From: an uncultured Eubacteriales bacterium
Lineage (GTDB): Bacteria > Bacillota > Clostridia > Christensenellales > Aristaeellaceae
Length of the DNA: 41,192 nt
Assembly: GCA_902790525.1 (NCBI GenBank)
Contig: CADASI010000018.1
Coordinates: forward strand, 1 to 41,192
Direction: 5' to 3'
Under the pieces are notes generated by a model that searched no databases, was not told where the DNA came from, and worked only from the letters and a program-made list of their open reading frames with translations. Both the position numbers and the translations under genes were made by a program. Below are positions 6,454 to 28,708 of the stretch, in pieces. Every line of letters starts with the position of its first letter. Positions within the stretch are counted from its first letter, which is position 1.

Positions 6454-9435
6454 ATGAGCGATATCATGCGCCCGATCGCCTTTGGGCATCTGATGAACTG
6501 GATACTGGCGGAATACCGCTTAAACGGCAGCGTGTTCGGCGTGTCCGATCCCGTCCGGCACGACAACGGACAGGCCCTGCCGATCTTCGAGGAGAAAATC
6601 GAGGCGCCCTTCGGCCCCGCCGCCGGGCCGAACACGCAGCTGGCGCAGAATATCGTCGCCGCCTACGCCGCCGGGGCGCGGTTCTTCGAGCTCAAGACGG
6701 TGCAGGTCATGGACGGCCCGGAGCTGGCGGCCTGCGTGAACAAGCCCTGCATACTCGCCGACGACGAGTGCTACAACTGCGAGTGGTCCACCGAGCTCTA
6801 CGTCCACGAGGCCTACGCCGAGTACGTCAAGGCCTGGGTGGCCTGCAAGCTGCTGGCGCGGGAATACGGTCTGGGCGACCCGGACGCCTTCGTGTTCAAC
6901 ATGTCCGTGGGCTACGACCTCGCGGGCATCAAATCAGAGAAGATCAACGCCTTCATCGACGGCCTGATCGACGCGAAGGACAGCCCGGTCTTCCGGTCGT
7001 GCATCGACTGGGCGCTCTCCAATGTCGATCAGTTCAAAAACGTGGACGCAGCCTACATCCGCGGCATCAGCCCCCGCATATCGCGCTCCATCACGGAGTC
7101 CACGCTGCACGGCTGTCCCCCGGACGAGATCGAGCGCATCGCCACCTACCTGATCGAGGAGAAGGGCCTGAACACCTACATCAAGTTAAATCCCACCCTG
7201 CTGGGCTACGACTACGCCCGGCAGCGGCTTAACAGCCTGGGCTTTGACTACGTGTGCTTCGACGATAAGCACTTCCGCGAGGACCTCCAGTGGGCCGACG
7301 CGGTGCCGATGCTTCGCCGCCTGACGGCGCTGGCCGCACAGAAGGGTCTCGAGTTCGGCGTCAAGCTGACCAACACCTTCCCGGTAGACGTGACCCGCGG
7401 CGAGCTGCCCAGCGAGGAGATGTACATGGCCGGGCGCGCGCTGTTCCCGCTGACCATCCACCTGGCGGCGATGATCAGCGAGACCTTCGGCGGGCGCCTG
7501 CGCATCTCTTACTCCGGCGGCGCGATGGCCACCAACGCCGCGGCGCTGTTCAACGCCGGCATCTGGCCCATCACCATGGCCACCACGATTTTAAAGCCCG
7601 GCGGCTACCGGCGGTTTGGGCAGATCGCGGCGACCCTCATGGAATGCGGCAGCGCGCCCTTCGCGGGCGTGGACGTGGCCGCGGTGAAGGCGCTGGATCA
7701 GGGCGTCGCCGCCTCCGCGCTGTACAGAAAGCCCGTCAAGCCGCTACCGGACCGCAAGAACGGCAGGGAGCTTCCCATGTTCGACTGCTTTTCGGCCCCC
7801 TGCCGGGACGGCTGCCCCATCGGCCAGGACATCCCCGCCTATCTCCAGGCGATGCTGGAGGGCGACGCCGAAAAGGCCCTGCGCGTCATACTCGAGCGGA
7901 ACCCGCTGCCGTTCATCACCGGCACCCTCTGCCCCCACCACTGCGGGGACAAGTGCATGCGCAACTACTACGAGGACAGCGTGAACATCCGCCAGACCAA
8001 GCTGGCCGCGGCCCGGGGCGGCTTCGACAGGGTGCTGCCGACCCTGCGCCCGGCAAAGGCCGTCGGCGACAAAAAGGTCGCCGTGATCGGCGCGGGTCCC
8101 GCGGGCCTCGCGGCGGCGGCGTTTCTGTCCCGCGCGGGCGTTGAGGTGACCGTGTTCGAGCGCAGGGACGCGCCGGGCGGCGTGGTGCGCCACGTCATCC
8201 CCGGCTTCCGCATCGACCCCGCCGACATCGCGCGGGATATCGAAATCTGCACGGCCTTCGGCGCGAAGATCGTCTGCGGCAGGGAGATCTCCTCCGTCGA
8301 CGCATTGAAGGCCGAGGGCTTCACGGACATGATCGTGGCCGTCGGCGCGTGGAAGCCCGGCAAAAACCCGCTCAAGTCCGGCGAATGCCTGGACGCGCTG
8401 GAATTCCTGGAGGCGATCCGGAAGGACCCCGCCCTGCCGGTCGGCGAGGACGTGGCGGTGATCGGCGGCGGCAACACGGCCATGGACGTGGCCCGGGCGG
8501 CGAAGCGCCTGCCGGGCGTCAAAAACGTGCGGCTGGTCTACCGCAGGACGCGCCGCTACATGCCCGCCGACGGCGAAGAGCTGCAAATGGCGCTGGACGA
8601 CGGCGTGGCATTCATGGAGCTTCTGGCCCCGGAGCGCCTGGAGGACGGCAAGCTGATCTGCCGCAAAATGGCGCTTGGCGCGCCGGACGCTTCCGGCAGG
8701 CGCGCGCCGGTGGACACCGGCGAGGTCGTGGAAATTCCCGCGAACACCGTCATCGCGGCGGTGGGAGAGGCCGTGGACACCGGGCTTTACGAGGCCGCGG
8801 GCTGCGCGCTCGACGCCAAGGGACGCCCGGCGGTTAACGCCGACATGCGCACCAGCGTCGAAGGCGTGTACGCCATCGGCGACGCCCGCCGCGGCCCGGC
8901 CACCGTGGTAGAGGGCATCGCGGACGCGGCGGCGGCCGCGGCGGCCATCGCGGGCGCGCGCTTCGACGGCTTCGCGGCGGAAAACCGCGCGCCGGAGGAG
9001 AAGTACCGCTTCAAGAAGGGCATGGTGACGGAGGACACCTCCGCCGCGCCCGACTGGCGCTGCCTGGGCTGCCCGTCGGTGTGCGAGGCCTGCGCGGACG
9101 TGTGCCCGAACCGCGCCAACGTGGCCGTGCGCGTGCCCGGCAGGTGTCAGACGCAGATCGTCCACATCGACGGCATGTGCAACGAGTGCGGCAACTGCGC
9201 CGTGTTCTGCCCCTACAACGGCAGGCCCTACCGCGACAAGCTCACGGTGTTCTGGTCGGAGGAGGACTTCGCGGCCAGCGAAAACGCGGGCTTCATGGTC
9301 CTCGGCGACGGCCGCGTAAAGGTGCGGCTCGACGGGCGGGAGCAGGTCGCCGATGTGGACATGCTGCCTCCCGACGCGGCGGACGTGATCCGCGCCGTGA
9401 TCCGCGACTACCCCTGGCTTTTGCACAACGAATGA
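6454..9435 (+). CDS. ygfK: YgfK-type flavin/iron-sulfur reductase (putative selenate reductase subunit)
   Basis: Large cytoplasmic redox protein of 993 residues (E. coli YgfK about 1032). Visible order: N-terminal dihydroorotate-dehydrogenase-like TIM-barrel region (about 1-430); a glutamate-synthase small-subunit-type Fe-S segment with SAPCRDGCP and TLCPHHCGDKC (about 445-505); an FAD motif GAGPAG (about 545-550); an NAD(P)H motif GGGNTAMD (about 670-677); and a ferredoxin region with CLGCPSVCEAC (from 870) and CNECGNC (from 909). It resembles a fusion of dihydropyrimidine-dehydrogenase-like parts and plausibly reduces a purine-derived ring using NAD(P)H; the selenate-reductase name is historical. 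AAAGGAG sits 7 bases before the ATG. It is flanked by ssnA and ygeX. Confidence 0.9.
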   Translation: MSDIMRPIAFGHLMNWILAEYRLNGSVFGVSDPVRHDNGQALPIFEEKIEAPFGPAAGPNTQLAQNIVAAYAAGARFFELKTVQVMDGPELAACVNKPCILADDECYNCEWSTELYVHEAYAEYVKAWVACKLLAREYGLGDPDAFVFNMSVGYDLAGIKSEKINAFIDGLIDAKDSPVFRSCIDWALSNVDQFKNVDAAYIRGISPRISRSITESTLHGCPPDEIERIATYLIEEKGLNTYIKLNPTLLGYDYARQRLNSLGFDYVCFDDKHFREDLQWADAVPMLRRLTALAAQKGLEFGVKLTNTFPVDVTRGELPSEEMYMAGRALFPLTIHLAAMISETFGGRLRISYSGGAMATNAAALFNAGIWPITMATTILKPGGYRRFGQIAATLMECGSAPFAGVDVAAVKALDQGVAASALYRKPVKPLPDRKNGRELPMFDCFSAPCRDGCPIGQDIPAYLQAMLEGDAEKALRVILERNPLPFITGTLCPHHCGDKCMRNYYEDSVNIRQTKLAAARGGFDRVLPTLRPAKAVGDKKVAVIGAGPAGLAAAAFLSRAGVEVTVFERRDAPGGVVRHVIPGFRIDPADIARDIEICTAFGAKIVCGREISSVDALKAEGFTDMIVAVGAWKPGKNPLKSGECLDALEFLEAIRKDPALPVGEDVAVIGGGNTAMDVARAAKRLPGVKNVRLVYRRTRRYMPADGEELQMALDDGVAFMELLAPERLEDGKLICRKMALGAPDASGRRAPVDTGEVVEIPANTVIAAVGEAVDTGLYEAAGCALDAKGRPAVNADMRTSVEGVYAIGDARRGPATVVEGIADAAAAAAAIAGARFDGFAAENRAPEEKYRFKKGMVTEDTSAAPDWRCLGCPSVCEACADVCPNRANVAVRVPGRCQTQIVHIDGMCNECGNCAVFCPYNGRPYRDKLTVFWSEEDFAASENAGFMVLGDGRVKVRLDGREQVADVDMLPPDAADVIRAVIRDYPWLLHNE

Positions 9436-14749: not shown

Positions 14750-14782
14750 CCTAATCCCTAGTCCCTAATCCCTAATCCCTCC
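14750..14782. repeat. 7-bp tandem array, inverted (CCTAATC/CCTAGTC)
   Basis: Units CCTAATC, CCTAGTC, CCTAATC, CCTAATC, CCTCC lie just before the AAAGGAGG of the next gene. A 23-base stretch is the exact reverse complement of 14495-14517. With the MITE, it accounts for most of the 310-base gap after yqeA; 14690-14749 shows nothing recognisable. Confidence 0.85.
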
Positions 14783-14804: not shown

Positions 14805-17393
14805 GTGCCTGAGATTTATCGCTTCACCGTCAACGGCACCCCCTGCGAAACGGCGGAGGTCAAGCCGCTGTTGCGGTATCTGCGGGACGACCTGCACCTC
14901 TATTCCGTCAAGGACGGCTGCAGCGAGGGCGCGTGCGGCACCTGCACCGTCGTCGTGGACGGCAGGGCGGTCAAGTCCTGCGTGCTGAGCACCAAGCGCG
15001 CCGACGGCAAGGCCATACAGACCGTCGAGGGCCTGACGGACTTCGAGAAGGAGGCGTTCGTGTACGCCTTTGGGGTCTCCGGCTCGGTGCAGTGCGGCTT
15101 CTGCACGCCGGGCATGGTCATGGCGGGCAAGGCGCTGATCGACCGGGACCCGGACCCCTCGGAGCATGAGATCAAGGTCGCCATACGGGGCAACCTCTGT
15201 CGCTGCACCGGCTACCGCAAGGTCATCGACGGCATCAAGCTGGCCGCCGCCATCCTCCGCGGGGACGCCGAGATCGACCCGGAAATCGAGAAGGGCGACG
15301 CCTTCGGCGTCGGGCAGCGGGCGTTCCGCGTGGACGTGCGAAAGAAGGTCCTCGGATATGGCAAGTACCCGGACGACGTCGACATGGCGGGCATGCTGCA
15401 CCTCTCCGCCGTGCGCTCGAAGCACGCCCGGGCACGGGTACTGTCCATCGACGCCTCAGAAGCCCTCGCCATGGACGGCGTGGTCGGCGTGCTGACCGCC
15501 GAGGACGTGCCCAACAACAAGGTCGGCCACATCCAGCAGGACTGGGACGTGATGATCCCCGTCGGCGATGTCACGCGCTGCGTGGGCGACGCCATCTGCC
15601 TGGTGGCCGCGGAATCCGAGGCGATACTGAAAGAAGCCAAGGCAAAGATCAAAATCGAATACGAGGTGCTGACGCCCGTCACCTCCATCGCCGAGGCCAT
15701 GGCCCCCGACGCGCCGAAGGTCCACAGCAGGGGCAACCTCTGCCAGACCCGGCACGTCACCCGCGGCGACGCGAAGGCCGCGCTGGCGGCCTCGGCCCAT
15801 ACCGTCACGAAGTCGTTCAGCACCCCCTTCACCGAGCACGCCTTCCTCGAGCCCGAGTGCGCGGTGGCCTTCCCCTACAGGGACGGCGTGAAGATCCTGA
15901 GCACCGACCAGGGCGCCTACGACACCCGCAAGGAGACCGCCATCATGTTCGGCTGGGACCCGGAGCGCATCGTGGTGGAGAACATGCTGGTGGGCGGCGG
16001 CTTCGGCGGCAAGGAGGACGTGAGCGCCCAGCACATCGCCGCGCTGGCGGCGTGGAAGTTCAAGCGGCCCGTCAAGGCGAAGTTCAGCCGGCAGGAGTCC
16101 ATCAACTTCCACCCCAAGCGCCACGCCATGGAGGGCACCTTCACGCTGGGGTGCGACGAAAACGGCATATTCACCGGGCTGGACTGCGACATCTACTTCG
16201 ACACCGGCGCCTACGCCTCGCTGTGCGGCCCGGTGCTGGAGCGCGCCTGCACCCACTCCGTGGGCCCGTACTGCTACCAGAACACCGACATCCGCGGCTA
16301 CGGCTACTACACCAACAACCCGCCCGCCGGGGCCTTCCGTGGCTTCGGCGTCAGCCAGAGCGAGTTCGCGCTGGAGAGCATGATCAACCTGCTGGCCGAG
16401 AAGGTGGGCATCTCCCCGTGGGAGATACGCTACCGGAACGCCATCGAGCCGGGCAAGGTGCTGCCCAACGGCCAGATCGCCGACTGCTCCACGGCCCTGA
16501 AGGAGACGCTGCTGGCCGTGAAGGATATCTACGAGCAAAATCGCACCCACGCGGGCATCGCCTGCGCCATGAAGAACTCCGGCGTGGGCGTGGGCCTGCC
16601 GGACAAGGGCCGGGCGCGGCTTCAAATCGAGGACGGCGTGTGCGTGATCTACTGCGCCGCGTCGGACATCGGGCAGGGGTGCCTCACGGTGTTCTGCCAG
16701 GACGTGGCCGAGGCCACGGGGCTTCCGCTGTCGAAGATCCGCAACGGCAGTCCCAGCACCGAGGTCGCGCCGGACTCCGGCACCACCTCCGGCTCCCGGC
16801 AGACGCTGCTGTCCGGCGAGGCCGTGCGCATGGCGGCGCTTCAGCTGAAAGAAGCATTGGATGCGGTAAACGGCGACCTCGACGCGCTGAACGGCCGGTC
16901 CTTCTTCTACGAATACTTCGAGCCCACCGACAAGCTGGGCGCGGACGTGCCCAATCCCAAGAGCCACATCGCCTACGGCTACGCCACCCACGTGGTGATC
17001 CTGGACGACGACGGCAAGGTCAGCGCGGTCTACGCGGCGCACGACTCCGGCAGGGTCGTCAATCCCATCGCCATACAGGGGCAGATCGAGGGCGGCGTGC
17101 TGATGAGCATGGGCTACGCGCTCACCGAGGACTTCCCCTTAAAGGACGGCGTGCCGCAAGCGAAGTTCGGCACACTGGGGCTTCTGCGCGCCAGCCAGAT
17201 CCCGGACATCCACGCCATCTACGTGGAGAAGGACGAACTGCTCCCCGTGGCCTACGGCGCGAAGGGCATCGGCGAGATCGCCGCCATCCCCACCGCGCCC
17301 GCCGTGCAGGGGGCCTACTACGCGCTGGACGGCATGTTCCGCACGAAGCTGCCGCTTGAGAACACCTGGTATCGAAGGGGTGATAAAAAATGA
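14805..17393 (+). CDS. xdhD: selenium-dependent xanthine dehydrogenase, fused Fe-S/molybdopterin protein
   Basis: Fusion of the [2Fe-2S] and Mo subunits of a purine hydroxylase, 862 residues, like E. coli XdhD and the family annotated as selenium-dependent xanthine dehydrogenase. Cluster ligands are C39, C44, C47, C59 and C97, C100, C132, C134. The hammerhead and Mo domains follow (about 180-860), with VGGGFGGKED (about 395-404), GAFRGFG, and GAKGIGE with the catalytic Glu at 824. No FAD domain is present, so it must pass electrons to a partner such as XdhB or YgfK. There is no in-frame Sec codon; selenium would be a labile Mo ligand. Start GTG 14805 follows AAAGGAGG. It overlaps hyuA by ATGA. 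Confidence 0.92.
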   Translation: MPEIYRFTVNGTPCETAEVKPLLRYLRDDLHLYSVKDGCSEGACGTCTVVVDGRAVKSCVLSTKRADGKAIQTVEGLTDFEKEAFVYAFGVSGSVQCGFCTPGMVMAGKALIDRDPDPSEHEIKVAIRGNLCRCTGYRKVIDGIKLAAAILRGDAEIDPEIEKGDAFGVGQRAFRVDVRKKVLGYGKYPDDVDMAGMLHLSAVRSKHARARVLSIDASEALAMDGVVGVLTAEDVPNNKVGHIQQDWDVMIPVGDVTRCVGDAICLVAAESEAILKEAKAKIKIEYEVLTPVTSIAEAMAPDAPKVHSRGNLCQTRHVTRGDAKAALAASAHTVTKSFSTPFTEHAFLEPECAVAFPYRDGVKILSTDQGAYDTRKETAIMFGWDPERIVVENMLVGGGFGGKEDVSAQHIAALAAWKFKRPVKAKFSRQESINFHPKRHAMEGTFTLGCDENGIFTGLDCDIYFDTGAYASLCGPVLERACTHSVGPYCYQNTDIRGYGYYTNNPPAGAFRGFGVSQSEFALESMINLLAEKVGISPWEIRYRNAIEPGKVLPNGQIADCSTALKETLLAVKDIYEQNRTHAGIACAMKNSGVGVGLPDKGRARLQIEDGVCVIYCAASDIGQGCLTVFCQDVAEATGLPLSKIRNGSPSTEVAPDSGTTSGSRQTLLSGEAVRMAALQLKEALDAVNGDLDALNGRSFFYEYFEPTDKLGADVPNPKSHIAYGYATHVVILDDDGKVSAVYAAHDSGRVVNPIAIQGQIEGGVLMSMGYALTEDFPLKDGVPQAKFGTLGLLRASQIPDIHAIYVEKDELLPVAYGAKGIGEIAAIPTAPAVQGAYYALDGMFRTKLPLENTWYRRGDKK

Positions 17394-19518: not shown

Positions 19519-19755
19519 ATGTTGGCAATTCAAGGTTATTATGATGGCGTAACCATCAAGCCCCTTGAAAAAATAGCGGCAAAGCCCAATCAGCGCGTCA
19601 TTATCACAATACTGGATGAATATGTGGAGCCGATCAAGGTTGTTCGCAAAAAGGGAATGCGTGGGGTCCTCGCACAGTACGCTGACCCGGAACTCAGAGA
19701 GAAGGAAAACGGCGCCTGGGAGCGTGCTGTGGTGGGAAAATATGGTAATACTTGA
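19519..19755 (+). CDS. probable antitoxin of a VapC-type toxin-antitoxin pair
   Basis: Small 78-residue protein (MLAIQGYYDG at the start, PNQRVIITILDEY at 23-35) encoded directly before and overlapping a PIN toxin by 14 bases. The placement and size are those of an antitoxin; its fold was not identified from motifs, though an N-terminal DNA-binding part and a C-terminal toxin-binding tail would be expected. GAAAGGG precedes the ATG. The base composition is visibly lower in G+C than the flanking purine genes, suggesting acquisition. Confidence 0.7.
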   Translation: MLAIQGYYDGVTIKPLEKIAAKPNQRVIITILDEYVEPIKVVRKKGMRGVLAQYADPELREKENGAWERAVVGKYGNT

Positions 19756-20104
19756 TACGAACATGATATTGCGGTATCTGCTCAATGACGATCAGGAGAT
19801 GGCAGATATCGCCGAACAACATCTGAATGCCGGGGATGCGTCCGTTACGATCGAAGTCATTGCAGAAGTTGTTTATGTCCTCAAGGGCGTATATTCAATG
19901 GATCGCGATGTGATCGCCGAAACCGTCAAAGGTTTTTTGGAACTTGTAAATTGTCAGGAAATGGCAGTGTTGAATCTTGCGCTTGATACTTATGCGGAAC
20001 GCAATCTTGATTTTGTCGATTGCGTCCTGTATGGATATCATGCTGTTAAAGGCATTGAAATAGCGACATTCGACAAGAAGCTGAAAAAACTGCTTGAATC
20101 CTGA
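19742..20104 (+). CDS. vapC: VapC-like PIN-domain ribonuclease toxin
   Basis: PIN nuclease of 120 residues. Acidic active-site residues are visible as the Asp in ILDTNMI near the N-terminus, Glu in IEVIAEVVY (about 40), Asp in LDFVDCVLYGY and Asp in IATFDKKL. Such toxins cleave RNA, often tRNA, when released from the antitoxin. The ATG at 19742 overlaps the antitoxin frame, giving translational coupling. Low G+C and its own promoter mark it as a separate module inside the metabolic cluster. Confidence 0.85.
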   Translation: MVILDTNMILRYLLNDDQEMADIAEQHLNAGDASVTIEVIAEVVYVLKGVYSMDRDVIAETVKGFLELVNCQEMAVLNLALDTYAERNLDFVDCVLYGYHAVKGIEIATFDKKLKKLLES

Positions 20105-20232: not shown

Positions 20233-20586
20233 ATGGAAGCGAGGGTCAAGCTGACGCTATGGGGGGCGGAGAAGTTCTTCGGCCCCGGGGTGTGCGAGCT
20301 GTTGGAGCGGATACGGGACACCGGCTCCATACAGGCCGCGGCGGCGCAGATGGAGATGTCCTACACGAAGGCGTGGAAGATACTGAACCGCGCCGAGCGG
20401 GGCATGGGCGTCGCCCTGATCACCCGGGTGACGGGGGGCAAAAAGGGCGGCAGCTCCACGCTGACCGGGGCCGGGGAGAAGGCGGTCGCGGACTTCCGGG
20501 TGATGGAGGCGCGGCTGATGGCAGCGGGCAACGCGCTCTTAATCGAGTACGAACGCACATTCAGGCCCGGCGGGGAGGAAGCATGA
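20233..20586 (+). CDS. ModE-like winged-helix DNA-binding protein
   Basis: 117-residue protein matching the N-terminal DNA-binding half of ModE. A LysR-type helix-turn-helix occupies about residues 20-65 (IRDTGSIQAAAAQMEMSYTKAWK), followed by the wing region with GGKKGGSSTLT. There is no molybdate-binding (molbindin) domain, so it cannot sense molybdate the way E. coli ModE does, unless it responds to another ligand or partner. It leads the selenium/molybdenum maturation genes and overlaps the next gene by ATGA. The palindrome at 20171-20196 is a plausible binding site. Confidence 0.82.
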   Translation: MEARVKLTLWGAEKFFGPGVCELLERIRDTGSIQAAAAQMEMSYTKAWKILNRAERGMGVALITRVTGGKKGGSSTLTGAGEKAVADFRVMEARLMAAGNALLIEYERTFRPGGEEA

Positions 20587-21347
20587 GCGCGCGCTTCGGG
20601 GTGGGCATCGACATCGGCTCCACCTGCGCCAAGACGGTGGTCGTCGACCAGGGCGGCAACGTGATCTGGCGGGACCTCCGTCCCACCGGCTGGAGCAGCG
20701 TGGACACCGCGGAGGCCATACGGCGCGACCTGCCGCCGGAAATCACGGGCAATGCCCGGTGCGTGGCCACCGGCTACGGGCGCGTGTCGGCGCCGTTTGC
20801 GGACCGATGCGTCACGGAGATCACCTGCCACGCGAAAGGCGCGGCGGCGCTGTTCGGGCTTTGTGACCTCAACGTGATCGACATCGGCGGGCAGGACACC
20901 AAGCTGATCGTCCTGCAGGACGGCGCGGTGTCGGAGTTCGCGATGAACGACAAGTGCTCCGCGGGCACGGGCCGCTTCCTCGAGGTGATGGCGAACACCC
21001 TCGCCGTGACCCCCGCCGGGCTGTGCGACATGGCCGCCCGGGGCGCGCCGACGCGCATCAGCGCGCTGTGCACGGTGTTCGCGGAGTCGGAGGTCGTGGG
21101 CCTCATCGGGCGGGGCACGCCGCGGGAGAACATCGCCTGGGGCGTGGTGGACTCCGTCGCCCAGAAGGTCAAGACCCAAGCCGGCAAGCTGCGCCTCGGC
21201 CCGGGCCCCCTGTGCCTCACCGGCGGGCTGTGCGACTTCCCCTTCGTGCTCAGACGGCTGGAGGCGGCCTTCGGACGACCCGTGCGCACCGCGCCGGAAG
21301 CAAGGTTTGCCGGGGCGCTGGGGGCGGCGTTATTCGCTTTGAGATAG
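20583..21347 (+). CDS. BadF/BcrD-type ATP-dependent activase of a double-cubane reductase
   Basis: ASKHA-fold ATPase of 254 residues, member of the acyl-CoA dehydratase activase family. ATP-site motifs are GIDIGSTCAK (8-17) and DIGGQDTK. C125 (KCSAGTGRF) and C163 (ALCTVFAESE) are the ligands of a [4Fe-4S] cluster bridging the homodimer. It hydrolyses ATP to drive low-potential electrons into its partner, encoded 140 bases downstream. Similar to E. coli YjiL. Start ATG 20583 overlaps the ModE-like stop. Confidence 0.88.
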   Translation: MSARFGVGIDIGSTCAKTVVVDQGGNVIWRDLRPTGWSSVDTAEAIRRDLPPEITGNARCVATGYGRVSAPFADRCVTEITCHAKGAAALFGLCDLNVIDIGGQDTKLIVLQDGAVSEFAMNDKCSAGTGRFLEVMANTLAVTPAGLCDMAARGAPTRISALCTVFAESEVVGLIGRGTPRENIAWGVVDSVAQKVKTQAGKLRLGPGPLCLTGGLCDFPFVLRRLEAAFGRPVRTAPEARFAGALGAALFALR

Positions 21348-21353
21348 GCAAAT

Positions 21354-21384
21354 GAGGAGTTAGGAATTAGGAATTAGGAATTGA
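21354..21384. repeat. 7-bp tandem array (GGAGTTA/GGAATTA)
   Basis: About four heptamers start 6 bases after the activase stop codon. The inverted partner is at 21431-21449, so the intergenic RNA could form a stem around a 46-base centre. Confidence 0.82.
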
Positions 21385-21430
21385 GTTACTCGCTGCCGCG
21401 CGAGATACCCGTAAAGCTTCAAGCATTTAA

Positions 21431-21449
21431 TAATTCCTAATTCCTAATT
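21431..21449. repeat. 7-bp tandem array, inverted (TAATTCC)
   Basis: TAATTCC, TAATTCC, TAATT lie about 22 bases before the AAAGGAG of the reductase gene. They complement the array at 21354-21384 exactly over about 19 bases. Confidence 0.82.
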
Positions 21450-21487
21450 GAAATCCCAACACTACACCACAAAAGGAGATGTATCAT

Positions 21488-22762
21488 ATGGCTGACTACA
21501 TACAAATGTGGAAAGACCTCGGTATGGACCTTGAATCGCACGACATGCTGTGTCAGGTACTGCCCACGGCGGTGGGCGACGTGTTCATGACGCAGCAGAA
21601 CCGGCCCAAGGCCATGGATTTCTGGGATCTGGTGATCTCCGAGGTCCACGGCATCCGCCCCGCGGAGCTGATCGAGGCGCAGAAGGCGGGCCGCAAGGTG
21701 TTCGGCACGTTCTGCGTGTTCGTGCCGGACGAGATCGTCATCGCCTTGAACGGCATCGTGACCGGCCTGTGCGGCGGCTCGCAGTTCTGGGTGCCGGGCG
21801 GCGAGGCGGTGCTGCCGAAGAACACCTGTCCCCTGATCAAGGCGTCGGTGGGCGCGCGCCTCGGGCGGACCTGCCCGTTCTTCCGCATCGCGGACGTGTA
21901 CGTGGGCGAGACCACCTGCGACGGCAAGAAGAAGGCGTATGAGATCCTCGGCCAGGACGTGCCCATGATCATCATGGACGTGCCGCAGATGAAGCGCCCG
22001 AAGGACATCCTCAAGTGGAAGGACGAGATCGCCGAATTTGCCGCGAAGGCGGAGGCAATCACCGGCAACGCGCTGACCGTCGAAAACCTGAAGGCCGCCA
22101 TACGCACCGTCAACGAAAAGCGCAGGGCCATGGCGCGGGTCTACGACGCCCGCAAGAGCCTGAACCTGCCCATCTCCGGCCGCGACGCGCTGTTGATGAC
22201 CCAGATCTCCTTCTTCGACGACCCCGTCCGCTGCGCGCAGATGTGCAACCGCCTGGCCGACGAGCTGGAGCAGCGCATCAAAGACGGCGTCAGCGTGGCG
22301 AAGCCCGGCGACAAGCGCATACTGATCACCGGCACGCCGCTGGCGGTGCCCAACTGGAAGCTGCACAACATCGTCGAGACCAGCGGCGCGGTGGTGGTGT
22401 GCGAGGAGATGTGCACCGGCACCCGCTACTTTGAAAACCTGGTGGACGATTCCGGCGAGACGCTGGACGACCTCTTCATGGCCCTGGCCGAGCGCTACAT
22501 GAAGAACAACTGCGCCTGCTTCACCCCCAACCCGGGGCGCATAGAGGACATCATACGGCTGGCGCGGGCGTACCATGCGGACGGCGTGATCGATTGCAGC
22601 CTCAAGTTCTGCGGACTGTACGACATCGAGAAGCGGACGGTCTCGGAGGCGCTGCGGGCCGAGGGCATCCCGGTACTGTCGCTGGAGACCGACTACGAGG
22701 ACTCCGACGCCGGGCAGCTCCGCACCCGCATCGAGGCGTTCGTGGAGATGCTCAACGGCTGA
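21488..22762 (+). CDS. double-cubane-cluster-type reductase (HgdB-like, 2-hydroxyacyl-CoA dehydratase family)
   Basis: 424-residue protein of the HgdB/FldC superfamily, the partner of the activase. Cysteines at 76, 95, 114, 129, 144, 305, 309, 342, 344, 370 and 375 include candidates for an iron-sulfur cluster; single-subunit members such as the double-cubane protein and E. coli YjiM carry a double [4Fe-4S] cluster and reduce small substrates with ATP. Only one subunit is present, arguing against a genuine hydroxyacyl-CoA dehydratase, which needs two. AAAGGAG lies 9 bases before ATG 21488; an in-frame ATG at 21479 abuts the ribosome site and is unlikely. Substrate unknown; position within selenium genes suggests a link to Se or Mo cofactors or purine rings. 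Confidence 0.85.
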   Translation: MADYIQMWKDLGMDLESHDMLCQVLPTAVGDVFMTQQNRPKAMDFWDLVISEVHGIRPAELIEAQKAGRKVFGTFCVFVPDEIVIALNGIVTGLCGGSQFWVPGGEAVLPKNTCPLIKASVGARLGRTCPFFRIADVYVGETTCDGKKKAYEILGQDVPMIIMDVPQMKRPKDILKWKDEIAEFAAKAEAITGNALTVENLKAAIRTVNEKRRAMARVYDARKSLNLPISGRDALLMTQISFFDDPVRCAQMCNRLADELEQRIKDGVSVAKPGDKRILITGTPLAVPNWKLHNIVETSGAVVVCEEMCTGTRYFENLVDDSGETLDDLFMALAERYMKNNCACFTPNPGRIEDIIRLARAYHADGVIDCSLKFCGLYDIEKRTVSEALRAEGIPVLSLETDYEDSDAGQLRTRIEAFVEMLNG

Positions 22763-23022
22763 TGGTCCGCTACTATATACTCTTTGAAAACTACGAGCAG
22801 GGGCTCGCTCTCCACGACCTGCTGGATAATGCCGGGGTGATGAACCGCATCGCCCCGGCCCCCGCCGCGGCCCGGGGGAAGCTGTGCTGCGGCATGTCGC
22901 TGCTCGTCGAGGCAGACGCCATCGACGCCGCGCGGGACGTGATCGCGCGGGAAAGCGCGGCGCATTACGGCATCGTGCCGATGGAGGACCAGCTCCGGCC
23001 CAAGCGGGACAGATATTGTTAA
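22762..23022 (+). CDS. DUF3343 putative Se/S carrier protein, copy 1
   Basis: 86-residue protein of the DUF3343 family, proposed as a small selenium or sulfur carrier. It has the expected beta-alpha start RYYILFENYEQGLALHDLL and a central LCCGMSL with C42 and C43. It also ends in a C-terminal cysteine (RDRYC, C86), which may be a second redox or carrier site. Start overlaps the reductase stop by one base (TGATG), so the two are translationally coupled. A cysteine desulfurase follows. Confidence 0.85.
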   Translation: MVRYYILFENYEQGLALHDLLDNAGVMNRIAPAPAAARGKLCCGMSLLVEADAIDAARDVIARESAAHYGIVPMEDQLRPKRDRYC

Positions 23023-23037
23023 CCAGAGGTGTGTCTC

Positions 23038-24183
23038 ATGATCTATCTGGACAACGCCGCCACCACGATGATAAAACCCCCCTGCGTGGCGGAGGCGGTG
23101 ACGGCGGCGCTCACGTCGCTGGGCAACGCCTCCCGCGGGGCCCACGAGGGCGCGCTGAACACCAACCGCCTGCTGTACAGAACCCGCGGGAAGCTGGCGG
23201 ACTTCTTCGGCTGCCCGAAATCGGAGCAGGTCATATTCACCAACAACTCTACCGAGGCGCTGAACATCGCCCTGACCGGCACGCTGCGCCCGGGCGACCA
23301 CGTGATCACCACGGTATTGGAGCACAACTCGGTGCTCCGCCCGCTGTACCGGCTTCAAAGGGAGCGGGGCGTCGGGCTGTCCTTCGTGCCCGCGGACCGG
23401 CGGGGCTTAATCGACTATGCCGACTTTGAGCGGCTGATTCAGCCCAACACCCGGGCCGTCGTGTGCACCCACGCCTCGAACCTCACCGGCAACCTGCTGG
23501 ACATTAAGCGCATCGGGGAAATCGCGGCAAAGCACGGGCTATTGTTCATCGTGGACGCCTCCCAGACCGCCGGAGCCGTGCCCATCGACATGGTCGATAT
23601 GAACATCACCCTGCTGTGCTTCACCGGGCACAAGTCCATGATGGGGCCGCAGGGCACCGGCGGGCTGCTGATCAACGGGGACGTCGAGGTCGAGCCCTTC
23701 AAGGTGGGCGGCACCGGCGTGCAATCCTTCCTGACGACCCAGCCCCGGGAGTACCCCACGCGCCTCGAGGCCGGCACGCTGAACGGCCACGGCATCGCGG
23801 GCCTGTCCGCGGCGGTGGACTTCATTCGACAGACGGGCATCGACGCCATCCACGCCCATGAGATCGCCCTGGCGCGGCGGTTTCACGGGGTCGTGTCCGC
23901 CATCCCCGGCGTCGTGACCTACGGCGACTTCGCCACATGGGACCGCTGCCCCATCGTGGCGCTGAACGTCGGCGGCGCGGACTCGGCGCTGGTCTGCGAC
24001 GCCCTCTCCTGCGACTACGGCATCGCCACCCGCGCCGGCGCCCACTGCGCCCCGCTGATGCACCGGGCATTGGGCACCGAGAAACAGGGCGCGGTGCGGT
24101 TCAGCTTTGGGTACTTCAATACTGACGATGACGTGGAGGCGGCGGTTCAGGCCGTGAAGGAGATTGCGGAACGCATTGGATAA
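23038..24183 (+). CDS. class V cysteine desulfurase / selenocysteine lyase-like
   Basis: PLP enzyme of 381 residues that mobilises sulfur from cysteine or selenium from selenocysteine as an enzyme-bound persulfide or perselenide. The Schiff-base lysine is K199 (TGHKSMMGPQG) and the catalytic cysteine C337 (RAGAHCAPLMH). The family occurs beside SelD and YedF in genomes with selenium-dependent molybdenum hydroxylases, where it could supply selenide or the sulfido ligand of the cofactor. The ATG at 23038 is preferred over the GTG at 23029 because AGAGGTG is correctly placed. A heptamer array follows the stop. Confidence 0.88.
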   Translation: MIYLDNAATTMIKPPCVAEAVTAALTSLGNASRGAHEGALNTNRLLYRTRGKLADFFGCPKSEQVIFTNNSTEALNIALTGTLRPGDHVITTVLEHNSVLRPLYRLQRERGVGLSFVPADRRGLIDYADFERLIQPNTRAVVCTHASNLTGNLLDIKRIGEIAAKHGLLFIVDASQTAGAVPIDMVDMNITLLCFTGHKSMMGPQGTGGLLINGDVEVEPFKVGGTGVQSFLTTQPREYPTRLEAGTLNGHGIAGLSAAVDFIRQTGIDAIHAHEIALARRFHGVVSAIPGVVTYGDFATWDRCPIVALNVGGADSALVCDALSCDYGIATRAGAHCAPLMHRALGTEKQGAVRFSFGYFNTDDDVEAAVQAVKEIAERIG

Positions 24184-24215
24184 TGAGGAATTAGGAGATA
24201 GGAATTAGGAATTGG
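24184..24215. repeat. 7-bp tandem array (GGAATTA-type)
   Basis: Heptamer-type units (GAGGAAT, TAGGAGA, TAGGAAT, TAGGAAT) begin directly after the TAA of the desulfurase gene. Confidence 0.78.
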
Positions 24216-24225
24216 GGTTACAACC

Positions 24226-24251
24226 TCATTCCCCATTCCCCATTTCCCATT
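24226..24251. repeat. 7-bp tandem array (CCATTCC/CCATTTC)
   Basis: TCATTCC, CCATTCC, CCATTTC, CCATTC lie before the yedF ribosome site. The unit matches the array at 32281-32313 rather than its close neighbour at 24184, with which it pairs only partly. Confidence 0.78.
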
Positions 24252-24286
24252 CAAAACACCTATCATCACGAAAGGAAGCGTATAAT

Positions 24287-24904
24287 ATGGAACGCACACT
24301 CGACTGCATGGGCATGGCGTGTCCGCTGCCCGTGATCAACGCGAAGAAGGCCATCGAGGCCTTCACGGAGGACGGCACCCTCCGCATACTCGTGGACAAC
24401 GAGACGGCAGTTCAGAACCTCACCCGCCTGGGCGAGCACAACGGCTTTACGGTCACCTCCGCGCAGGACGGGGAAAAGGCGTTCACGGTCACGATGGCCG
24501 TGAAGGCATCCGCGGCGAAGGCGGCGACCGTCCCGGCGGAGGCGGTCAGCTGCGCCGTGCCCGCGAAGGGCGGCAGGGTGGTCGTGCTGTCCGCGGACAC
24601 CATGGGCGGCGGCGACGAGCAGCTCGGCAGGAAGCTGATGAAGGCCTTCATATTCGCGCTGACCAGTCAGGACGTACTGCCGGACAAGGTGATCTGCTAC
24701 AACCGCGGCGCGTTTCTGACCACGCAGGATCAGGACACCGTCAACGACTTGAAGAAGCTCGAGGCCGCCGGGGTCACCGTCATGACCTGCGGCACCTGCC
24801 TGGACTACTACGGCCTCAAGGAAGCGTTGAAGGTCGGCATCGTGTCCAACATGTACGATATCGTGGAGGCGCAGGTGGGCGCGTCCCTGATCATCCGGCC
24901 GTGA
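24287..24904 (+). CDS. yedF: sulfurtransferase-like selenium metabolism protein YedF
   Basis: 205-residue protein with a TusA/SirA domain (about 1-70) and a DsrE-like C-terminal domain (about 95-205). The CPxP motif is GMACPLPV with C12, the presumed thiol or selenol carrier residue. The C-terminal part has MTCGTCLDYYGL with two cysteines. This long form is the one tied to selenium-dependent molybdenum hydroxylases. It likely carries Se or S between the desulfurase and SelD or the cofactor. AAAGGAAG precedes the ATG; the start overlaps no other gene, and its stop overlaps the next start (TGATG). Confidence 0.9.
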   Translation: MERTLDCMGMACPLPVINAKKAIEAFTEDGTLRILVDNETAVQNLTRLGEHNGFTVTSAQDGEKAFTVTMAVKASAAKAATVPAEAVSCAVPAKGGRVVVLSADTMGGGDEQLGRKLMKAFIFALTSQDVLPDKVICYNRGAFLTTQDQDTVNDLKKLEAAGVTVMTCGTCLDYYGLKEALKVGIVSNMYDIVEAQVGASLIIRP

Positions 24905-25140
24905 TGCGCACGAAGGAGCGGCGGCTGATCGTGGCGTTTCACACCACCCACGACGCCATGGCGTTCGAGGACTACTGCCTGTCGCGCGGCGCGGCGGGGC
25001 GGCTGATACCGCTGCCCCGGGAGATCAGCGCCGGGTGCGGCCTGGCGTGGAGCGCGCCGCCCGGCGACATGGCTGGCCTGCGGGACCTGCTCGCCGGGGC
25101 GGGCATCGCGCCGCAGCACATAAAGGAGATGGAGATCTGA
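24904..25140 (+). CDS. DUF3343 putative Se/S carrier protein, copy 2
   Basis: 78-residue DUF3343 protein with LIVAFHTTHDAMAFEDYCL near its N-terminus and AGCGLAWSA around C45, the position equivalent to the CCG of copy 1 at 22762. It lacks the C-terminal cysteine of copy 1 and differs widely in sequence, so the two are old paralogues rather than a recent duplication. It overlaps yedF by one base and stops one base before selD. Confidence 0.83.
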   Translation: MRTKERRLIVAFHTTHDAMAFEDYCLSRGAAGRLIPLPREISAGCGLAWSAPPGDMAGLRDLLAGAGIAPQHIKEMEI

Positions 25141-25141: not shown

Positions 25142-26170
25142 ATGGAGACAAGCGCAAGGCTGACCCGGCTGGCGTCCTGCGCCGGGTGCGGCGCGAAGGT
25201 GGGCGCGGGCACGCTCTCGGCTCTGTTGCAGGATTTCAAGACGCGCACCGACCCCAGGCTGATCGTGGGCTTCGACAAGTCCGACGACGCCAGCGTCTAC
25301 GTCATCAACGACGACACCGCGCTCATACAGACCGTGGACTTCTTCCCGCCCATCGTGGACGACCCCTACCTGTTCGGCCAGATCGCCGCCGCCAACGCCA
25401 TCTCGGACATCTACGCCATGGGCGGGGAGCCGAAGCTGGCGCTGAACCTGCTGTGCGTGACGGAGCGGATGGAGGATGCGTGGGTCCGTGAGATCCTGCG
25501 CGGCGGCTACGACAAGGCCTACGAGGCCGGGGTGATCATCTCCGGCGGGCACACCATCCGCGGCGGGGAGCCGCTGTACGGCCTGGCGGTCACGGGGTTC
25601 GCGAAGCCCGACCGTATCCGGAAAAACGACGCCGCCATGCCCGGCGACGCGCTGATACTGACCAAGCCGCTGGGCGTGGGCGTGCTGACCACGGCGGCCA
25701 AGGCCGACCTGGCGGACGCGGCGGTGATGGCGCGCGTCTACCGTCAGATGGCCACGCTGAACCGGGATGCCTGCCGCGCCATGCAGAAGTACCGCGTCCA
25801 CGGCTGCACCGACGTGACCGGCTTCGGCCTGATGGGCCACGCCACCGAGATGGCCCAGGGCAGCGGCTGCACGCTGCACATCGGGGTCGGGAAGGTGCCC
25901 TTTCATCGCGAGGCATTGGAATTTGCGGACATGGGGCTTGTGCCCGCCGGGGCCTACCGCAACCGGGATTTCGCGGAGAGGTCCGCGTCGGTGCGGGGCG
26001 ACGTGTCCCGGGCCATGCAGGACATACTCTACGACCCCCAGACCAGCGGCGGGCTGCTGATCGCCGTGGACGAGGGGGACGCCGAAGCGTTGTGCGCCGA
26101 GGTCCCCGGGGCCGCCGTGATCGGGCATGTGACAGAAAGGGAGGCCAGCGCGCTGGTGCTGGAGGGATAA
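25142..26170 (+). CDS. selD: selenide, water dikinase
   Basis: Makes selenophosphate from selenide and ATP. The 342-residue protein has the active-site loop SCAGCGAK with C16 and K19 at the positions of E. coli Cys17 and Lys20, and the metal/ATP motif DDTALIQTVDFF followed by GQIAAANAISDIYAMGG. It is the cysteine, not the selenocysteine, form. With no selA, selB or selC in view and YqeB/YqeC neighbours, it probably serves selenium insertion into molybdenum hydroxylases (orphan SelD context). The gene abuts yqeB without a gap. Confidence 0.95.
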   Translation: METSARLTRLASCAGCGAKVGAGTLSALLQDFKTRTDPRLIVGFDKSDDASVYVINDDTALIQTVDFFPPIVDDPYLFGQIAAANAISDIYAMGGEPKLALNLLCVTERMEDAWVREILRGGYDKAYEAGVIISGGHTIRGGEPLYGLAVTGFAKPDRIRKNDAAMPGDALILTKPLGVGVLTTAAKADLADAAVMARVYRQMATLNRDACRAMQKYRVHGCTDVTGFGLMGHATEMAQGSGCTLHIGVGKVPFHREALEFADMGLVPAGAYRNRDFAERSASVRGDVSRAMQDILYDPQTSGGLLIAVDEGDAEALCAEVPGAAVIGHVTEREASALVLEG

Positions 26171-26998
26171 ATGGACAGCAATAATCTGATCATCGTACGG
26201 GGGGCCGGGGACATCAGCACCGGCACCATCCACCGCCTCGCCCGGGCGGGATTCCCGGTGCTGGCGCTGGAGGTCGCGCGCCCCTCCGCCATCCGCCGGA
26301 GGGTAGCGTTCTCGGAGGCCGTCTACGACGGCGCGGCCACCGTGGAGGGCGTCACGGCGGTGCGGATCGCCGACATAAAGGAGATAGATGAAGTGCTTGC
26401 GCGGGGCGAGGTGCCGCTGCTTGTAGACCCCGCGGGCGAGAGCATCCGAAGGCTCCGGCCTGCCGTCGTGGTGGACGCCATACTGGCCAAGCGCAACCTC
26501 GGCACGACGATGGACATGGCCCCGCTGACCGTGGCGCTGGGCCCGGGCTTCGCAGCCGGGCGGGACGTGCGCTACGTCATAGAGACCATGCGGGGGCACG
26601 ACCTGGGGCGCATCATCACCGAGGGCAGCGCGGCGGCCAACACCGGCGTGCCCGGCATGATCGGCGGCTACGGGGCCGAGCGCGTCATCCACGCGCCCGC
26701 CGCGGGCGTCTTCCGCATGCGCCGGGACATCGGCAGCGCGGTCGATGCGGATGAGATCATCGGCGTCATAGCGTCCGGGGACGGGGAGGTCCCCGTGCGC
26801 GCGCAGATCGCGGGCATACTGCGGGGCGTCATACGCGACGGCTTCCCGGTCACGGTGGGCTTCAAGCTGGCCGACGTGGATCCCCGGCTGGAGCAGTTGA
26901 AAAACTGCACCACCGTCTCCGACAAGGCCCGCTGCATCGCCGGGAGCGTGCTGGAGCTGGTCAGCGCCGCAGCGAACCGGCAAAGGCGTCCACGGTGA
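26171..26998 (+). CDS. yqeB: selenium-dependent molybdenum cofactor biosynthesis protein YqeB
   Basis: 275-residue YqeB-family (EF2563-type) protein, a marker of selenium-dependent molybdenum hydroxylases. It opens with IIVRGAGDISTGTIHRL, a glycine-rich Rossmann-like loop, and contains LVDPAGESIRRLRP and GPGFAAGRDV. Biochemical function unproven; a role in making or inserting the Se-containing Mo ligand is assumed. Its ATG follows the selD TAA directly. Its 3' end overlaps the 3' end of convergent yqeC by 38 bases. Confidence 0.92.
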   Translation: MDSNNLIIVRGAGDISTGTIHRLARAGFPVLALEVARPSAIRRRVAFSEAVYDGAATVEGVTAVRIADIKEIDEVLARGEVPLLVDPAGESIRRLRPAVVVDAILAKRNLGTTMDMAPLTVALGPGFAAGRDVRYVIETMRGHDLGRIITEGSAAANTGVPGMIGGYGAERVIHAPAAGVFRMRRDIGSAVDADEIIGVIASGDGEVPVRAQIAGILRGVIRDGFPVTVGFKLADVDPRLEQLKNCTTVSDKARCIAGSVLELVSAAANRQRRPR

Positions 26999-27608: not shown

Positions 27609-27625
27609 AGCGGTGCGCTCCTCTC

Positions 27626-27654
27626 TTGCCCAAATCAGGCAAATCCATTATAAT
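27626..27654 (+). promoter_or_regulatory. promoter for the XdhC-like/modBC genes, with TTGCC-N7-GGCAA dyad
   Basis: TTGCCC (27626-27631), a 17-base spacer and TATAAT (27649-27654) precede the XdhC-like gene. A dyad TTGCC CAAATCA GGCAA (27626-27642) covers the -35 region and may be an operator. The -10 overlaps that of the divergent yqeC promoter. Confidence 0.62.
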
Positions 27655-27676
27655 ACCATCATATCGACAGGGTCAA
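27647..27676 (-). promoter_or_regulatory. divergent promoter for yqeC
   Basis: On the minus strand TTGACC (27676-27671), an 18-base spacer and TATAAT (27652-27647). It shares the ATTATAAT core with the plus-strand promoter, so the two cannot be occupied at once. Confidence 0.62.
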
Positions 27677-27691
27677 GGAGGTCATGGGTCC

Positions 27692-28708
27692 ATGCCGGGT
27701 TTCTATGAGACGATCATGCGCGAAAAGACGCACAGGCGGCTGCTGGCGGCCTGGGTGATCACAGGCGACGCCGCGGGGACAAAGGCGCTGTTTGCCCGCG
27801 ACGGGGAGCGCCTCACCCCCCTCTGCGCGGACGCCGCCTTCCCCGTAGCCCTCGCCGCGGAGATCGGCAAGACGGCCCCGGATCAGACCGGCATCGCGGA
27901 ATATACCGGCGCGCGCGTCTTCCTGGAGCCGATCGTCGCGGGCAGGCGGCTGGTGGTGTGCGGCGCGGGCCACGTGGCGCTGTGCGTCATCCGGCTGGGC
28001 GTCGCGCTGGGGTTTGAGATCACCGCCATCGAGGACCGGCCCGAGTTCGCCGAAAAGGCCCGGGCCGCCGGGGCGCACAACGTGCTCTGCCAAGCCTTCA
28101 CCGACGCGCTGGATCGTATCGACGGCGACACCGACACCGCCTTCGTGGTCATGACCCGCGAGCACGCCCACGACGTGGACTGCCTGCGCCGCATCCTCCG
28201 AAAGCCCTGCGCCTACGCCGGCATGATGGGCAGCCACGGCCGCTCGGCGCAGATTCGCCGGCAGTTGGTCGCGGAGGGCTTCGATTCCGGGCGCGTGGAG
28301 GCGCTGCGCATGCCCATCGGCATCCCCATCGGCGCGCGCACGCCGGAGGAGATCGCCGTGTCCGCGGCGGCGGAGATCATCTCCGTGATGAACGCCGCCG
28401 ACCCCGGCGAGGGCTGGCCCCAGGGCATGCTGGAGGCGCTCTGCGCCCCCCATGAACCGGGGGTGCTGGCGATGATCGTCGAAAAGCGCGGCGAGGCCCC
28501 CCGGCGGCCCGGCACGAAGATGCTGGTCATGGGGGGCGGGCGGTTCATCGGCACCGTGGGCGGCGGGTACGCCGAGGCCGAGATCCTCCGCCTCGCCGGG
28601 GAGATGCTCCGGGACGGCGATAAAGCGTGCCGCCTCATGTCGATCGACATGAACAAGGGACCCACCTTCTGCGGCGGGGAGATCGAGGTCTTCCTGCTGC
28701 CGGTGTGA
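27692..28708 (+). CDS. XdhC/CoxI-family molybdenum hydroxylase maturation factor, reversed domain order
   Basis: 338-residue maturation factor that likely delivers the sulfurated or selenated Mo cofactor to xanthine dehydrogenase. The NAD-binding Rossmann part comes first (VVCGAGHVAL near residues 88-97, then AGMMGSHGRS), and the XdhC_CoxI part comes last (about 262-338: GEAPRRPGTKMLV, GTVGGGYAEAE, FCGGEIEVFLLPV). The common order is CoxI domain first, Rossmann second, so this protein looks circularly permuted. AAGGAGG lies 11 bases before ATG 27692. modB and modC follow in the same direction. Confidence 0.85.
   Translation: MPGFYETIMREKTHRRLLAAWVITGDAAGTKALFARDGERLTPLCADAAFPVALAAEIGKTAPDQTGIAEYTGARVFLEPIVAGRRLVVCGAGHVALCVIRLGVALGFEITAIEDRPEFAEKARAAGAHNVLCQAFTDALDRIDGDTDTAFVVMTREHAHDVDCLRRILRKPCAYAGMMGSHGRSAQIRRQLVAEGFDSGRVEALRMPIGIPIGARTPEEIAVSAAAEIISVMNAADPGEGWPQGMLEALCAPHEPGVLAMIVEKRGEAPRRPGTKMLVMGGGRFIGTVGGGYAEAEILRLAGEMLRDGDKACRLMSIDMNKGPTFCGGEIEVFLLPV

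Follow-up and report, generated by a model that had tools for sequence, protein, structure and literature searches.

What does an ATP-driven iron-sulfur reductase do in the middle of a set of selenium genes? The question is raised by contig CADASI010000018.1 (assembly GCA_902790525.1) of an uncultured Eubacteriales bacterium, of which a stretch of 41,192 nt was analyzed (the window). At positions 20233-25140, where all genes lie on the + strand and are directly followed on the 3' side by selD and yqeB, an earlier note had placed an activase and a single-subunit reductase between a ModE-like regulator and genes for DUF3343, a desulfurase, YedF and SelD, and family assignments confirm this gene order (Table 1). 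The reductase is of the double-cubane cluster protein (DCCP) type, and a protein with an [8Fe-9S] double-cubane cluster is a rare, complex iron-sulfur enzyme. The route by which selenium reaches SelD as selenide is poorly understood. SelD itself uses ATP to phosphorylate selenide (PMC11448449). Certain small molecules, namely acetylene, hydrazine or azide, are reduced by DCCPs, whose biological function a paper of 2025 describes as unknown (PMC11971306). The best reading of the data presented herein is that activase, DCCP and DUF3343 (the trio) form an optional ATP-driven step that would release carrier-bound selenium as selenide for SelD. Our survey ties DCCP to the question of selenide supply in three bacterial groups; if the reading is true, double-cubane proteins would gain a long-sought physiological role.

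The earlier assignment of the pair to the ATP-driven DCCP type, tied to selenium genes, is borne out by matches above cut-off to NF040772 and TIGR00241 and by the selenium gene neighbors. The closest solved structure to the reductase is 6ENO (phmmer E 5e-137), which together with 7YYL, 7YZM and 7YZQ we take to represent the DCCP and its reductase (DCCP-R) of Carboxydothermus hydrogenoformans. An AlphaFold model of the reductase (predicted local distance difference test score, 84.9) superposes on 6ENO with a template-modeling (TM) score of 0.95 and a root-mean-square deviation of 2.0 A over 421 columns, at 48% identity. An alignment of 20 DCCPs from the home class (the Clostridia), the window's protein among them, shows eight invariant cysteines (C76, C95, C114, C129, C144, C309, C342 and C375), each of which 6ENO also has. 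In an alignment with BzdN, which has a double-cubane cluster (PMC11971306), five of the eight (76, 114, 144, 309 and 375) match BzdN cysteines as judged by eye, and a sixth BzdN cysteine lies two residues off C342, next to an alignment gap. The eight invariant residues fit the [8Fe-9S] double-cubane cluster family and are candidate cluster ligands. The activase matches 1HUX and 7YYL_E in phmmer searches, and its motifs NDKCSAGTGRF and LCTVFAESEV, whose cysteines presumably bind a cluster, align with 1HUX; it is thus predicted to be the dedicated ATPase partner of the DCCP. Two better-known identities for the reductase were rejected: a 2-hydroxyacyl-CoA dehydratase (NF052456, 105.1 bits against a cut-off of 700, and one subunit gene, not two) and a benzoyl-CoA reductase of the bzd type (TIGR03190, 95.2 bits against 453.8). 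The earlier note had also remarked on the absence of CoA-ester metabolism nearby, and among the open reading frames (ORFs) scanned, a part of those in the window, none exceeded the cut-off of a CoA-ester enzyme, the activase domain model excepted.

Two types of DCCP can be told apart: a long one of ~424 amino acids (aa), to which the window's protein belongs and with which 6ENO aligns along its full 421 aa, and a short one of ~385 aa, exemplified by YjiM of Escherichia coli. Gene fusions were considered, as frames of up to 863 aa occur among NF040772 matches, and were rejected; a second reference domain was not found in 18 stretches compared with 20 reference proteins, and the very long frames therefore look like start-codon overcalls. 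Short and long DCCPs also occur in tandem (L009, 8668-11252; L144, 3391-5992), a layout that recalls the two-subunit benzoyl-CoA reductases, and by that analogy the two may form heterodimers. In addition, a truncated HGD-D-like protein of ~260 aa is encoded near a long-type DCCP in L121 (9195-9989), the one member tested with a hidden Markov model (HMM), and likewise in L042, L043, L088, L090, L095, L118, L120 and L122-L126; it is possibly a third component or a dimer partner of DCCP.

The distribution of DCCP was surveyed in three samples: the home class (243 genomes), the Coriobacteriia (119) and the Synergistota (125). Only matches over curated cut-offs were counted; the counts share phylogeny, and a collapse to genus level was made for the home class. 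In that class, DCCP was found in 31 genomes, selD in 59, selA in 42, yqeB in 33, YedF in 59 and selU in 31. All 31 DCCP genomes contain selD, against 28 of the 212 others (p 3.7e-23), and YedF gave the same figures (31/31 vs 28/212; p 3.7e-23). At the genus level, selD was present in 23/23 DCCP genera and in 21/137 others. Similarly, selD accompanies DCCP in 50/50 genomes of the Coriobacteriia (48/69 without DCCP) and in 56/58 of the Synergistota (32/67 without DCCP), i.e. in 137 of the 139 DCCP genomes of the three samples together. The genomes of 50 of 80 named relatives of the window's DCCP (L079-L128; 49 genomes) contain selD in 47 cases; these genomes overlap the samples, with G243 in the Coriobacteriia, G266, G283, G287 and G290 in the Synergistota, and L121 coinciding in place with G227:C1. 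Among 14 control genomes, in which Gammaproteobacteria and archaea are represented by single genomes, two had DCCP over cut-off (E. coli and Methanocaldococcus jannaschii) and two had selD over cut-off. Among the traits tested in the home class, the features shared by DCCP genomes are selD and YedF.

It might be argued that DCCP has nothing to do with selenium and keeps company with selD through an anaerobic lifestyle, since both traits are common in anaerobes. The comparisons were made within three largely anaerobic groups, one of them also at the level of genera. Moreover, home-class genomes whose sole matches were superfamily relatives scoring below cut-off served as a control, and no more than 13 of these 50 contain selD (15/162 for genomes with no match at all). 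We therefore regard a function unrelated to selenium as quite improbable.

Which use of selenium, then, does the module serve? By marker genes, the 31 DCCP genomes of the home class fall into nine with selA only, six with yqeB only, five with both, three with selA and selU, and eight with all three. Since nine of these genomes carry only the selenocysteine marker and six only that of the selenium cofactor, the common denominator is the supply of selenophosphate. Selenouridine was rejected as the common denominator, selU being present in 11 of the 31 DCCP genomes and rarer there than in selD genomes without DCCP (19/28; p 0.019). Among the 59 selD genomes of this class, DCCP and selU tend to avoid each other.

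A more specific proposal is that the module matures the selenium-dependent molybdenum hydroxylases. It draws on the gene order of the window, where selD, yqeB and a selenium-dependent hydroxylase occur together, as in a selenium-dependent molybdenum hydroxylase system; on the locus of the closest relative (L049, from a goat ileum Clostridia metagenome-assembled genome; 95% identity), in which a selenium-dependent xanthine dehydrogenase (Se-XDH) and a ModE-like gene belong to the same cluster as in the window; on ModE-like genes beside DCCP in L051 and L067; and on short-type DCCPs beside yqeB in L017, L022, L030, L031, L139 and L140. Nonetheless, DCCP was not a constant part of that system in the home class. 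It was found in 19 of 33 yqeB genomes and missing from 14, and 12 of the 31 DCCP genomes lack yqeB; within selD genomes, yqeB did not predict DCCP (p 0.44) and selA did so weakly (two-sided p 0.088). The module is therefore neither specific to hydroxylases nor required for them. The earlier note had proposed a tree to see whether selenium-linked members form a clade. In a quickly made tree of 44 rows, of which 42 are DCCPs of the home class and of E. coli and two are outgroups (the named relatives, some closer to the window, were left out), the presence of yqeB was not clustered, with 12 changes against a shuffled mean of 13.9 (97 of 500 shuffles were as low); the figure stays at 12 with E. 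coli counted as yqeB-positive or left out. The three rows nearest the window's DCCP belong to genomes that contain selA and lack yqeB. The tree separates long from short DCCPs, except for a short ORF (L032) in the long clade, and parts of it are unsure because of several long branches. A maturation step specific to these hydroxylases is thus largely refuted and very improbable, and the same counts lend no support to the role in reducing a molybdenum-cofactor intermediate raised in the earlier note.

The other suggestion, reduction of a purine-derived ring, rests on the location of the pair in a purine island. YgfK and SsnA, both encoded in the window, perform the reductive dearomatization in E. 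coli (PMC12507026). DCCP also occurs in the 12 genomes without yqeB (the marker surveyed, in place of ygfK), and Se-XDH lies near just one of 80 relatives. This idea can practically be dismissed. As the trio, which many anaerobic bacteria share with E. coli, is found almost only in genomes that activate selenium, it most likely prepares selenium for SelD and does not attack purines.

The genes that travel with DCCP point the same way. We compared 80 loci of the long type from named genomes, contig ends included. In 72 of the 80, DCCP is followed in the same orientation, at a distance of up to 600 nt, by a DUF3343 gene (absent in seven, no room in one); of the seven, L123 and L124 each have an ORF that groups with DUF3343-like ORFs by clustering, not by HMM, and L079 and L082 have a DUF3343 gene further downstream. 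Anywhere in the stretch, an activase was found at 59 loci, a desulfurase or lyase at 46, YedF at 16, SelD at eight, SelA at three, SelB at three, YqeB at two and Se-XDH at one, that of L049. Close homologues are thus largely scattered without selenium-hydroxylase genes, a pattern that the earlier note had named as a refutation of its inference, and still stay with selenium genes. Among short-type loci of the home class, seven of 23 (L017, L021, L022, L023, L030, L031 and L036) lie beside genes for SelD, YedF, a lyase, YqeB or XdhC-like proteins at clear scores. Complete selenium operons occur in stretches of the Coriobacteriia that were chosen for their long frames and not at random; examples are the orders DCCP-DUF3343-activase-lyase-YedF between selD and selAB (L145), and two DCCPs-activase-SelD-YedF-DUF3343-lyase (L144). 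A selD gene lies within 10 kb of DCCP in 19 of 50 Coriobacteriia and in 6 of 31 home-class genomes; if genes were placed at random in 2.8 Mb, ~0.7% would be expected. Beside one DCCP (L037, 10882-12720), a single ORF joins an ATP-pyrophosphatase domain (PF01902) to a class-V aminotransferase/desulfurase domain, as if it were a thiolating or selenating enzyme; ORFs of similar length occur in L039 and L040, and the one of L037 was tested by HMM.

The DUF3343 protein encoded next to DCCP is itself distinctive. Its Cys43-Gly44 pair is invariant in 88 of 88 aligned rows, YtiA of E. coli included, and a cysteine among the last four residues (the RDxYC tail) was present in 69 of 87 DCCP-linked proteins against 1 of 20 of the second type (p 5e-10), a contrast that is partly built in, because each protein was typed by which of the window's two DUF3343 proteins was its best blast hit. 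With the tail, the DCCP-linked type has two thiols, which might hold selenium as S-Se-S. Lin et al. described one conserved cysteine in DUF3343 and saw no selenium-specific subfamily (PMC5322559). A fold search gave weak PII- or ferredoxin-like matches only (best E 2.1e-3, TM ~0.5) and no functional clue.

From these pieces we infer the following substrate, direction and hand-over chain. The pyridoxal phosphate (PLP)-dependent lyase or desulfurase would free selenium (or sulfur) from (seleno)cysteine. DUF3343 would then carry the chalcogen on the cysteine of its Cys-Gly pair, and its C-terminal cysteine could form an S-Se-S bridge or a disulfide. An activase dimer would hydrolyze ATP and drive electrons of low potential into the double-cubane cluster; once reduced, the cluster would release the selenium as HSe-, to be handed to SelD by YedF or by the second DUF3343 protein. 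In the window, the resulting selenophosphate would go to YqeB and to the purine-island selenium hydroxylases. Gene order and chemistry are most simply read as this chain, from lyase/desulfurase through DUF3343 and DCCP (with activase and ATP) to selenide and SelD, and we give it about even chances. TudS, a one-domain relative in the DCCP superfamily, is a sulfur-transferring desulfidase with a [4Fe-5S] cluster (PMC11971306) and offers a precedent for chalcogen chemistry in that superfamily. Of the alternatives listed in the earlier note, reduction of a selenium or sulfur intermediate is the best supported, from the co-occurrence with selD and the selenium gene neighbors.

Several observations weigh against this reading. 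Two DCCP genomes lack selD over cut-off (G465 of 1.2 Mb and G287 of 2.1 Mb), and two of the 49 genomes of named relatives do so as well (G287 and G289). In the home class, selD lies 10 kb or less from DCCP in only six of 31 genomes. Conversely, 28 of the 59 selD genomes of that class do without DCCP, so that the step is optional and cannot be needed everywhere. The Coriobacteriia sample says less than the others, because selD is frequent there regardless (98/119). The weak point is thermodynamic: in our chemical judgment, potentials this low should not be required to reduce a perselenide, which leaves the cost in ATP unexplained. It could be accounted for by a form of selenium that is hard to reduce, or by a need for irreversibility when selenium is present in traces. 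Finally, DUF3343 and YedF may also handle sulfur, and the module may therefore have a role in sulfur metabolism.

That last point leads to a different function, in which DCCP would strip sulfur, as sulfide, from selenium carriers or the SelD pathway and so keep the two chalcogens apart. The desulfidase activity of its relative TudS (PMC11971306) and the capacity, in principle, of DUF3343 and the desulfurase to carry sulfur agree with such proof-reading. Stripping sulfur has no obvious need for ATP-driven electrons, however, and the specificity is conjectural; we consider it improbable. The optional occurrence of the module (31 of 59 selD genomes) agrees as well with the reduction of one environmental form of selenium (selenite, elemental selenium, or oxidized or organic selenium), which would protect or feed the cell, with DUF3343 as acceptor or chaperone of the product. 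DCCPs have been reported in methyl-selenium gene clusters (Kountz and Balskus, PMC10418091), and one cluster of ORFs recurs near DCCPs in L042, L055, L067, L069 and L124, the member in L067 being a PF04143 sulphur-transport protein (YedE by likeness). The tight order of DCCP and DUF3343 and the frequent selenocysteine-lyase-like neighbor point instead to internal handling of selenium, and acquisition or detoxification appears unlikely, although it deserves to be kept in mind. Returning to selenide supply, that the activase, DCCP and DUF3343 constitute a selenium-supply module at or before SelD, common to organisms with different end-uses of selenium, is in our judgment evenly balanced between true and false; that the module is involved with selenium in general is very probable.

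A test case is at hand in E. coli K-12 MG1655, in which the trio is encoded in a row: yjiM (383 aa; NF040772, 531.4 bits), yjiL (activase, 363.7 bits) and ytiA (85 aa; PF11823, 48.9 bits). As in the window, DCCP, activase and DUF3343 genes are consecutive. Unlike in the window, the DCCP is of the short type, and no annotated selenium gene accompanies the trio in the 12 kb inspected; YtiA keeps the Cys-Gly pair and lacks the RDxYC tail. Formate hydrogenlyase of this organism requires a selenoprotein, FdhF. An expression table from a section on YgfI shows yjiM (-6.9) and yjiL (-5.3) changing together with hycF, hycE and hypB (PMC9068703); a table of the FNR regulon lists yjiML with '+' signs, ahead of the heading for FNR-repressed genes (PMC3688515), and yjiM is named in the Fnr regulon elsewhere (PMC12724342). 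These data fit a role in selenium metabolism and do not prove it. As the trio is present in E. coli K-12, with its simple selenium genetics, the function of DCCP and the route of selenium to SelD can be tested together. Tentatively, and at somewhat less than even chances, many SelD-using prokaryotes, E. coli with its trio included, may hold a nitrogenase-like, ATP-driven, selenide-generating reductase (DCCP plus activase, acting on selenium held by DUF3343, which often has an extra thiol at its C terminus) as a missing reductive step before selenophosphate synthesis.

The features of the window are collected in Table 1. The home genome has no match to selA or selU (completeness 94.66%), and it therefore appears to use selenium as a hydroxylase cofactor only; the Se-XDH is likely the user. 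Upstream lies a reductive purine island encoding XdhABC, SsnA, YgfK, YgeX, YgeY, YgeW, carbamate kinase, Se-XDH and dihydropyrimidinase. The overlaps described in the earlier note, ATGA between regulator and activase at 20583 and one base (TGATG) between reductase and DUF3343 at 22762, are both real. Activase and reductase are not tightly joined; the 140 bp between them carry a hairpin of GGAATTA heptamers, and the gap between desulfurase and YedF (24184-24286) carries similar repeats. Intergenic GGAATTA heptamers occur at 13270-13299, 13512-13541, 14764-14779, 21356-21451 and 24187-24216 (15 matches against 0.01 expected, at two mismatches or fewer and with overlapping matches counted), in inverted pairs at 13.3-13.5 kb and 21.35-21.45 kb.

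Table 1. Genes and other features of the window, with the matches on which they rest (scores in bits)
Feature	Position	Strand	Evidence
YgfK	6454..9435	+	TIGR03315 1295.5 (cut-off 835.3)
Selenium-dependent xanthine dehydrogenase (Se-XDH)	14805..17393	+	TIGR03311 1227.4 (cut-off 830.45)
ModE-like DNA-binding domain regulator, 117 aa	20233..20586	+	TIGR00637 61.9 (below cut-off 98.5); PF00126 36.5 (cut-off 26.6)
ATPase activase of DCCP (DCCP-R), 254 aa	20583..21347	+	TIGR00241 206 (cut-off 125.4); PF01869 156.8
140-bp gap between activase and DCCP, inverted repeat of GGAATTA heptamers	21348..21487	.	Pattern scan; RNA fold -36.1 kcal/mol, z -3.9
Double-cubane-cluster reductase (DCCP), long type, 424 aa	21488..22762	+	NF040772 477.6 (cut-off 350); PF06050 400.5 (cut-off 28.4)
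DUF3343 (PF11823, Se/S carrier-like), DCCP-linked type, 86 aa, CCG motif, C-terminal RDRYC	22762..23022	+	PF11823 42.6 (cut-off 25)
PLP cysteine desulfurase / selenocysteine-lyase-like (EF2568 family)	23038..24183	+	TIGR01977 428.5 (cut-off 377); SclA model NF040779 358.4 (below cut-off 525)
YedF (TusA-like plus DsrE-like)	24287..24904	+	TIGR03527 218.2 (cut-off 110); PF01206 61.9; PF02635 23.2
Second DUF3343, 78 aa, AGCG cysteine, C-terminal cysteine absent	24904..25140	+	PF11823 76.5 (cut-off 25)
SelD selenophosphate synthetase, in-frame TGA absent (no internal stops)	25142..26170	+	TIGR00476 394.6 (cut-off 125)
YqeB, selenium-dependent Mo cofactor protein	26171..26998	+	TIGR03309 341.2 (cut-off 220)
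XdhC-family protein	27626..28708	+	NF045664 216.7 (below cut-off 350); TIGR02964 127.6 (below cut-off 161.6)

Three further observations concern the surroundings of these genes. Between yqeB and the XdhC-like gene, a conserved ORF of 218 aa (27052-27708) has relatives beside DCCP/yqeB genes in L049, L139 and L140; it matched no Pfam or NCBIfam model, yqeC was not searched genome-wide, and the ORF is a possible unnamed selenium-cofactor gene or an unrecognized yqeC. Between the purine and selenium parts (19519-20104), a PIN-domain protein (41.7 bits; cut-off 23.6) and, before it, a small overlapping ORF with weak similarity to AF2212 (E 0.084, below cut-off) resemble a toxin-antitoxin pair. MtaA-like Se/S methyltransferases are members of the URO-D superfamily, and a protein of this superfamily (61 bits, C-terminal half) is encoded next to an ABC transporter at 38346-39629 on the - strand.

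How much of this is new? The earlier note had called the pair a part of the selenium system not yet described, which holds in part. Kountz and Balskus provisionally linked a dicubane cluster protein to selenium metabolism (PMC10418091). Since that link is already in print, the news lies in its generality, in the trio and in the E. coli test case. A search of the literature, largely without subscription journals, found no functional proposal joining DCCP, DUF3343 and SelD; the terms hydroxyglutaryl, HgdB, activase and dehydratase had no match in PMC2276186, PMC11448449, PMC2432076, PMC5029168 and PMC9312934, and a term search did not find DUF3343 in the text of PMC10418091.

Four known systems invite comparison. 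BzdN and 2-hydroxyisocaproyl-CoA dehydratase share the fold with the window's protein, and BzdN the double-cubane cluster (PMC11971306), but they are two-subunit CoA-ester enzymes, below whose cut-offs the window's protein lies far. The DCCP/DCCP-R pair of C. hydrogenoformans resembles that of the window in sequence (48% identity), whole-length fold, the eight invariant cysteines and possession of its own activase; the window's DCCP differs in lying in a selenium operon with DUF3343, 6ENO having been compared as a protein only. In the Type 1 mlp gene clusters, a 'dicubane cluster protein' and its reductase are drawn among selenium genes, as in the window, but the context is methyl-selenium, and the portion of the paper that treats these clusters contains no survey of DCCP (PMC10418091). 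The selenium clusters of Slackia heliotrinireducens, shown by STRING in Table 1 of Lin et al. 2015, contain an activase, two dehydratase-like subunits, DUF3343 proteins, selenocysteine lyase, YedF and SelD; the activase and 2-hydroxyglutaryl-CoA dehydratase-like genes are tabulated there and left undiscussed in the accompanying passages (PMC5322559). Those clusters belong to a selenocysteine biosynthesis setting (PMC5322559), whereas the window, from a genome without a selA match, belongs to a selenium-cofactor one.

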